From NCBI GenBank assembly GCA_028693155.1, contig JAQUVY010000011.1:1-39335 (forward strand): a stretch of DNA of 39,335 bases. Reading direction: 5' to 3'. The translations under genes were made by a program, and so were the position numbers. Source of the stretch: Eubacteriales bacterium. Lineage in GTDB: Bacteria; Bacillota; Clostridia; Christensenellales; UMGS416. The notes under the pieces are model-generated. The model was not told where the DNA came from. It made no database searches and worked only from the letters and a program-made list of their open reading frames with translations. Below, in pieces: positions 38,506-39,335 of this stretch (positions are counted from its first letter, which is position 1; every line of letters starts with the position of its first letter).

Positions 38506-39335
38506 TGCTCTCGGGAACAGTACTTTGGGCGTTTGCATAGTTTTTCCCCGAAGAAGGGGTCAAGGGACGATTGCCCCTTGTAGGGTTCTTATCTATCCAT
38601 TATGTTTGTCGCTCCCGTGATTGCCACTGCGCGGCAACACTGCGCTTAGTCTGAACGTGTTTCGGCTGCCAGTGCCGCTGGGGCGGCACTGGTTTGGGAT
38701 GAAATCTCTTGGGGCTTCCGTCAACCGCTGCAAGGAAGACTCGCCTCCGGCGGGGGCAAAGGGGATTAGGGGGCGTTCCGATGCGCCCCCTGAAATCCCC
38801 CTTGCATTCCCCTATTACCCCCTGGCGTCTGGGGACACCCCAGACCCCGGGAGCGTTTCGCCTACGGCGAAACGCGAAGGCAGTCAAGAGTTCCTGCTGA
38901 CACTGATGCCGAAAGGAACACCGCAGGTGTTCCGAAAGGCGGCGGCCGAAGTGCGAGGGTAGCTAAGAGCAACTACTGCTGCAAACCGCATTCCGCCCCA
39001 GGCTGCCTGCTCTCGGGAACGATGCTGCGACTGTCAAAGCATATCTTTTCCGAAGAAAGGGTCAAGGGACGATTGCCCCTTGTAGGGTTCTTATCTATCC
39101 ATTATGTTCGCCGCTCCCGTGATTGCCGCTAAGGCGGCAACACTGCGCTTGTTTTGAGCGTGTTTCAGCTGCCAGTGCCACTGGGGCGGCACTGGTTTGG
39201 GATGAAATCTCTTGGGGCTTCCGTCAACCGTTGCAAGGAAGACTCGCCTCCGGCGGGGGCAAAGGGGATTAGGGGGCGTTCCGATGCGCCCCCTGAAATC
39301 CCCCTTGCATTCCCCTATTACCCCCTGGCGTCTGG
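38506..39335. repeat. ~502-nt tandem direct repeat, highly structured (copy 1: 38506-39007; copy 2: 39008 to window end, truncated)
   Basis: tgctctcgggaac starts both copies (38506, 39008); long identical blocks (caagggacgattgccccttgtagggttcttatctatccattatgtt; gaaatctcttggggcttccg...ccccctggcgtctgg) at offsets 502-503. Confidence 0.9.

Follow-up and report, generated by a model that had tools for sequence, protein, structure and literature searches.

A composite hairpin repeat forming ordered intergenic arrays, probably spread as DNA, in a genome of the Clostridia

The contig end of a 39,335-nt stretch of DNA (the window) carries copies of a 502-503-nt sequence downstream of a histidine kinase and response regulator gene pair, and these copies are part of a dispersed structured repeat rather than a gene. 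The repeat is likely to be a species-private, composite, non-coding intergenic DNA element of the NIME, BOX and BIME kind, in which approximately 13 types of box are joined by a fixed grammar and have spread as DNA. Its notable features are that grammar, the nesting of boxes within the loops of other boxes, and its restriction to one lineage.

The array at the contig end

Upstream of the array, and co-directional with it, lies a gene for an OmpR-type response regulator (Response_reg plus Trans_reg_C; 37732..38439, + strand). The array itself, an intergenic mosaic on the + strand at 38484..39335, follows approximately 50 nt past the stop codon and reads A-C-S-T-U-V-P-Q-p-A-C-S-T-U before the contig end cuts it. 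Boxes A and C, together termed module R (38492..38609, +), contain a CTCGGGAAC core and the hairpins CCCCGAAGAAGGGG and AAGGGACGATTGCCCCTT, and the module is present in 83 genome copies in the DNA that was fetched. Box S (38610..38696, +) forms the hairpins TTGCC-ACTGCGC-GGCAA and CCAGTGCCGC-TGGG-GCGGCACTGG, box T (38697..38762, +) carries the hairpin AGGGATGAAATCTCTTGG in addition to CTCGCCTCCGGCGGGGGC, and box U (38763..38826, +) consists of the hairpin GGGGGCG-TTCCGA-TGCGCCCCC and subsequent C-runs that amount to a minus-strand G-quadruplex motif. Next come box V (38827..38851, +), with the hairpin GTCTGGGG-ACA-CCCCAGAC, and box P (38852..38905, +), with the hairpin GCGTTTCGCC-TAC-GGCGAAACGC and the tail GGCAGTCAAGAGTTCCTGCTGAC. 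Box Q (38906..38945, +) has the structure GATGCCGAAA-GGAACACC-GCA-GGTGTTCC-GAAAGGCGGC and occupies a slot that is filled elsewhere by the longer box X. Finally, a half P box (38943..39007, +), made up of the right arm GGCCGAAGTGC and a tail, runs into the next box A, which starts near 38994 and opens the second copy, boxes A-C-S-T-U (39008..39335, +).

An earlier, sequence-only reading of this region had described two head-to-tail copies, and such a tandem pair is indeed present, with a spacing of 502-503 nt and an identity of 95-97%. Specifically, a direct repeat of 202 nt (38631-38832 and 39134-39335) is 97% identical at a spacing of 503, and another of 81 nt (38548-38628 and 39050-39130) is 95% identical at a spacing of 502. 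The 1-nt change in spacing maps to the small hairpin that had been singled out as differing between the copies, and every hairpin quoted in that reading was found at its coordinates. Two details need adjustment: the window end truncates the second copy, as had been noted, but contig C103 (39,335 bases) itself ends there; and the similarity begins earlier than the proposed start at 38506, with box A extending from approximately 38492. Elsewhere in the window, four short tandem repeats with periods of 12-21 occur at 203-231, 7602-7645, 12067-12095 and 20465-20500.

The view that the repeat is not a gene is borne out by several observations. A codon model called no gene within the arrays, the 113-aa and 95-aa ORFs of the repeat have no Pfam match, and 1-nt indels separate copies; for example, box S occurs in copies of 90, 92, 93 and 94 nt, and the corresponding indels change the reading frame.

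A genome-wide family of ordered and nested boxes

Searching the genome by BLAST with the 502-nt unit, a check that the sequence-only reading had proposed, returned more than 150 matches to its different pieces. Iterated profile searches of the fetched surrounding stretches resolved at least 46 intergenic arrays composed of approximately 13 box types, together spanning 36.2 kb (approximately 1.5% of the assembly) and individually ranging from approximately 0.2 to 1.8 kb, in agreement with the suggestion of a dispersed structured repeat. A covariance model of box S has 74 matches in the genome. All of these counts are lower bounds, both because they derive from fetched stretches of the genome and because repeats break assembly, 17 of the 46 arrays coming to within 150 nt of where a contig stops. 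Median identity among S copies is 87% within an array versus 77% between arrays, which fits local duplication atop an older dispersal. Short tandem runs of box S fragments are also seen, at L104:15-212 (38-nt period) and L053:3004-3368.

The boxes follow one another in a strongly constrained order. Across 530 transitions, the mutual information between neighbours is 2.07 bits, whereas within-array shuffles average 0.21 and do not exceed 0.28. The order can be written as Z>A>(C>S or T>[Y]>U>V>P), P>(Q, X or W)>P, and P>A, with tandem inner runs such as P-Q-P-Q-P or S-C-S-C and a few inversions of whole blocks (e.g., V-U-T in L041 and L057). Certain positions exist in both empty and filled states: the loop of box U is empty (GGGGACGTTACGATGCGTCCCC) in 13 cases and holds a 96-97-nt S insert in 11, while box Y is present at the T-U junction in 9 cases and absent in 16. 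Likewise, Q and X are alternatives between the same flanks and thus share one slot. A GTT repeat borders the S insert in U at both edges and could be a short duplication. Terminal inverted repeats were absent from this insertion, the one checked for them, and target-site duplications were nowhere clear, so that insertion is presumptive.

The genes that adjoin the arrays are ordinary, unrelated chromosomal genes of housekeeping type that share no common theme, including those for asparaginyl-tRNA synthetase type, RecR, HemN type and MgtC proteins, a pseudouridine synthase, a P-type ATPase and an AraC-type regulator, among others. When each locus is read in the direction of its array, the upstream gene points the same way in 23 of 32 cases, whereas the 31 downstream genes divide 16 to 15, the 15 being convergent. 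At least 10 arrays, most of which open with a P hairpin, begin no more than approximately 10 nt from a stop codon. On the reverse strand, a T-run comes after several of the P hairpins, which makes these predicted terminators on that strand. Separately, the idea that the P hairpin is a captured ordinary terminator found no support, terminators outside the arrays having other stems.

Hairpins, strands and competing readings

Hairpins are enriched approximately ten-fold: the 36 kb of arrays contain 316 with a stem of at least 8 pairs, versus 22-44 in Markov-resampled arrays and 298 in 275 kb of flanking DNA. Among 52 copies of box S, 97.5% of cells are paired and double changes are seen at 7 of 22 pairs, including 5 of the 9 pairs in helix 2. 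Double-change cells number 41, versus 13.8 in shuffles that keep the relatedness of the copies, and sliding the pairing partners destroys the signal. Box P tells a similar story, its 60 full hairpins comprising approximately 12 perfectly paired versions of the stem. At the recR site, the P stem even takes in the stop codon, and the right arm is altered to match (TAGAACTTCGGCC / GGCCGAAGTTCTA).

These covarying stems in box S, together with the co-directional upstream genes and the stop codon as a frequent starting point, lend some support to the proposal that transcription of the upstream gene continues into the arrays and yields long structured RNAs or structured 3' UTRs, which would protect or regulate mRNA. 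The sequence-only reading had likewise entertained a large structured RNA. Against this, the two strands fold equally well: a 524-nt unit has folding energies of -240.6 and -241.2 kcal/mol, with z-scores of -5.1 for the plus strand and -6.7 for the minus strand relative to dinucleotide shuffles, so that structure as such clearly exceeds chance. RNA selection on one strand should lead to G-U being tolerated above A-C, and the mismatches in the stems of 159 distinct hairpins, albeit few in number, include 18 G-U and 17 A-C. Moreover, box content varies between these mosaic arrays, which include inverted blocks and do not share the conserved outline of a single RNA, and nearly half of the downstream neighbours are convergent. 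The Rfam search, covering the window and six array loci, gave no match above the gathering score to ROOL, GOLLD, OLE, HEARO or any other family, and a search at relaxed thresholds gave only chance matches of microRNA type. A dedicated RNA is thus probably not the nature of the repeat, and the mRNA-linked version of the idea appears improbable.

The loops offer a further clue. Among hairpins of the same stem type, loops form 11 reverse-complement pairs, versus 3 complement pairs (all AAA/TTT) and 2 reverse pairs. Template switching is described as leaving a signature of homogenised arms and inverted spacers (PMC8604942), and hairpins can be maintained by this process (PMC8794818). The inverted loops and homogenised arms of the present repeat are compatible with DNA template switching. 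Taken together with the balanced G-U and A-C mismatches (small counts) and the equal folding of both strands, they lead us to infer that the stem covariation is at least partly mutational in origin.

Another possibility is that a host protein (gyrase, a nucleoid protein or a recombinase) recognises the boxes as DNA sites, much as gyrase is bound by BIMEs, and that selection on the host keeps the hairpins. In favour of such sites are the perfect stems, the small number of box types and the location of the arrays, at least 46 in number, at gene ends, as is the G-quadruplex motif on the reverse strand of box U, which occurs in 27 places within the arrays and nowhere in 280 kb outside them. However, no single invariant motif is found in all arrays, a relative of the same genus lacks arrays at the two sites compared, and no candidate protein was found, so that this explanation, too, seems unlikely.

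A final candidate is the REP/RAYT system, as the genome encodes one RAYT (NF047646, 81.9 bits against a cut-off of 80; G000:C139:5110-5601, equivalent to L099:1333-1824). That this RAYT moves the boxes as REPs is highly improbable and was rejected for lack of linkage: the gene is flanked on each side by a repeat of approximately 110 nt (a GCTCAATCGTCGCTCACATGT motif plus a terminator-like hairpin) that differs from the boxes and occurs nowhere else in the genome, its contig (C139) has no array box, and a GTAG/CGTC REP tag lies within 7 nt of only a few of 239 box hairpins.

The reading that we favour, a composite repeat spread as DNA, would account for the arrays as follows. At the DNA level, boxes and blocks of boxes would be copied to new intergenic sites and would also expand where they lie. 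Both tandem growth and the exchange of blocks could result from unequal recombination, for which the numerous short hairpins that they share would serve as substrates, while template switching within hairpins during replication would keep stems perfect as their sequence drifts and would flip the loops. To the host, the arrays would probably be mostly passive, tolerated just past stop codons, although they may act as transcription barriers as a side effect. Against this explanation, the missing inverted ends and the want of a clear target-site duplication leave insertion presumptive, the fixed orientation within most arrays and the mostly co-directional upstream genes also fit a role in transcription, and the G-U and A-C counts are small.

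Known repeat systems, distribution and significance

Composite intergenic repeats are known from Neisseria, pneumococcus and enterobacteria, and how they move and come to be ordered is, to our knowledge, still mostly unsettled. The NIME arrays consist of dRS3 and RS elements, bear inverted repeats, are intergenic, are scattered over the chromosome of a single lineage, and measure 0.2-2.7 kb (PMC3898611). The present arrays resemble them in being intergenic and in combining several repeat types, and all 46 fall within the NIME size range. Unlike NIMEs, the 46 arrays have no match to dRS3 (ATTCCC-N8-GGGAAT), and they are built of approximately 13 larger, GC-rich hairpin boxes with a fixed order and hairpin-in-loop nesting; no link to a phage integrase was found. 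The pneumococcal BOX element (boxA-boxB(n)-boxC) is likewise non-coding and able to form stem-loops, with repeats inserted into one another (PMC3049150), and it shares with the present arrays an ordered set of modules and a variable copy number of the inner ones. The comparison is one of organisation, not sequence, and the arrays described here have more module types, are longer (to 1.8 kb), are GC-rich and lack terminal inverted repeats in the one insertion in question (S in U). BIME/REP and REPIN elements also form clusters of palindromes at gene ends, and a RAYT is encoded here as well; however, the present boxes are 40-115 nt in length versus 20-40 nt, nearly all lack the GTAG/CGTC tag, and repeats other than the boxes flank the RAYT gene. 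On the best reading, therefore, the repeat works like a member of the NIME/BOX class, with the proviso that the NIME sequence is lacking and that BOX is set beside it by description only.

As far as has been searched, the repeat is private to the species or lineage, and this restriction forms part of the reading judged likely above. BLASTN against 40 relatives gave no match, nor did distant BLASTN against plasmid and phage records. The model of box S found no match in the other seven genomes of the family; a larger search, of 395 genomes of the order besides this one, used stricter filters, scored few candidates per genome and likewise gave none. In a search of GTDB species with one exact pattern, two lone matches in Chloroflexota MAGs were judged to be due to chance. 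One contig of a viral collection, and only one, has a short stretch of similar hairpins (L095:4400-4600), in which GGGTCAAGGGATGAAATCCCTTGCAGGG lies beside further perfect hairpins and a tandem stretch of TAGGTCT; similar to the tail of the A/C boxes, it may be part of some broader class of hairpins found between genes. The source genome encodes Spo0A, consistent with an endospore-lineage Firmicute. In the Clostridia literature searched, which covered few subscription papers and is thus weak evidence, no description of such repeats was found.

In G001, of the same genus, no array lies behind recR (protein 84% identical) or asnS (82%), and the 93 kb of its sequence that was examined is free of clusters and has a single diverged U-like box. 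The U-like element is situated at a contig start (L129:19-72) and consists of a G-rich hairpin followed by C-runs. Twenty samples of 2.6-20 kb from other genomes of the order contained no hairpin clusters, one of them (L182) being without readable bases. In G002, terminator-like hairpins (GCCCGGCCGGCTTCCCACGGCCGGGC) recur several times within approximately 1 kb (L163:18302-19274). A second genus of the same family, represented by G006, does possess dense hairpin arrays of the same style (L153:7730-8348, 12704-13059 and 19103-19496; L155:36-746), in which intergenic, GC-rich tandem units of approximately 320-360 nt with dense perfect hairpins are located behind gene ends. No sequence is common to these arrays and the present boxes, and a 21-mer marker of the G006 arrays (CCCCCACCCTTCTAAAACTTT) is found 47 times in that genome and not once in 395 other genomes searched.

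It is conceivable, if rather doubtful, that the grammar and the loop insertions reflect a dedicated assembly process that has independently yielded box sets with no relation to one another in separate genera of the same family. Such a process might involve an enzyme that, beginning at gene ends, adds hairpin boxes to hairpins already in place, either in their loops or at their ends.

For students of bacterial intergenic repeats, these arrays carry a caution, in that covariation within such repeats need not signal a functional RNA. Within a single genome, approximately 46 arrays show an order that can be read, slots in both empty and filled states, and traces of template switching, and a second genus offers an independent set of the same style. 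As such, the origin and the rules of growth of these repeats should be testable by comparing the sequences of strains.
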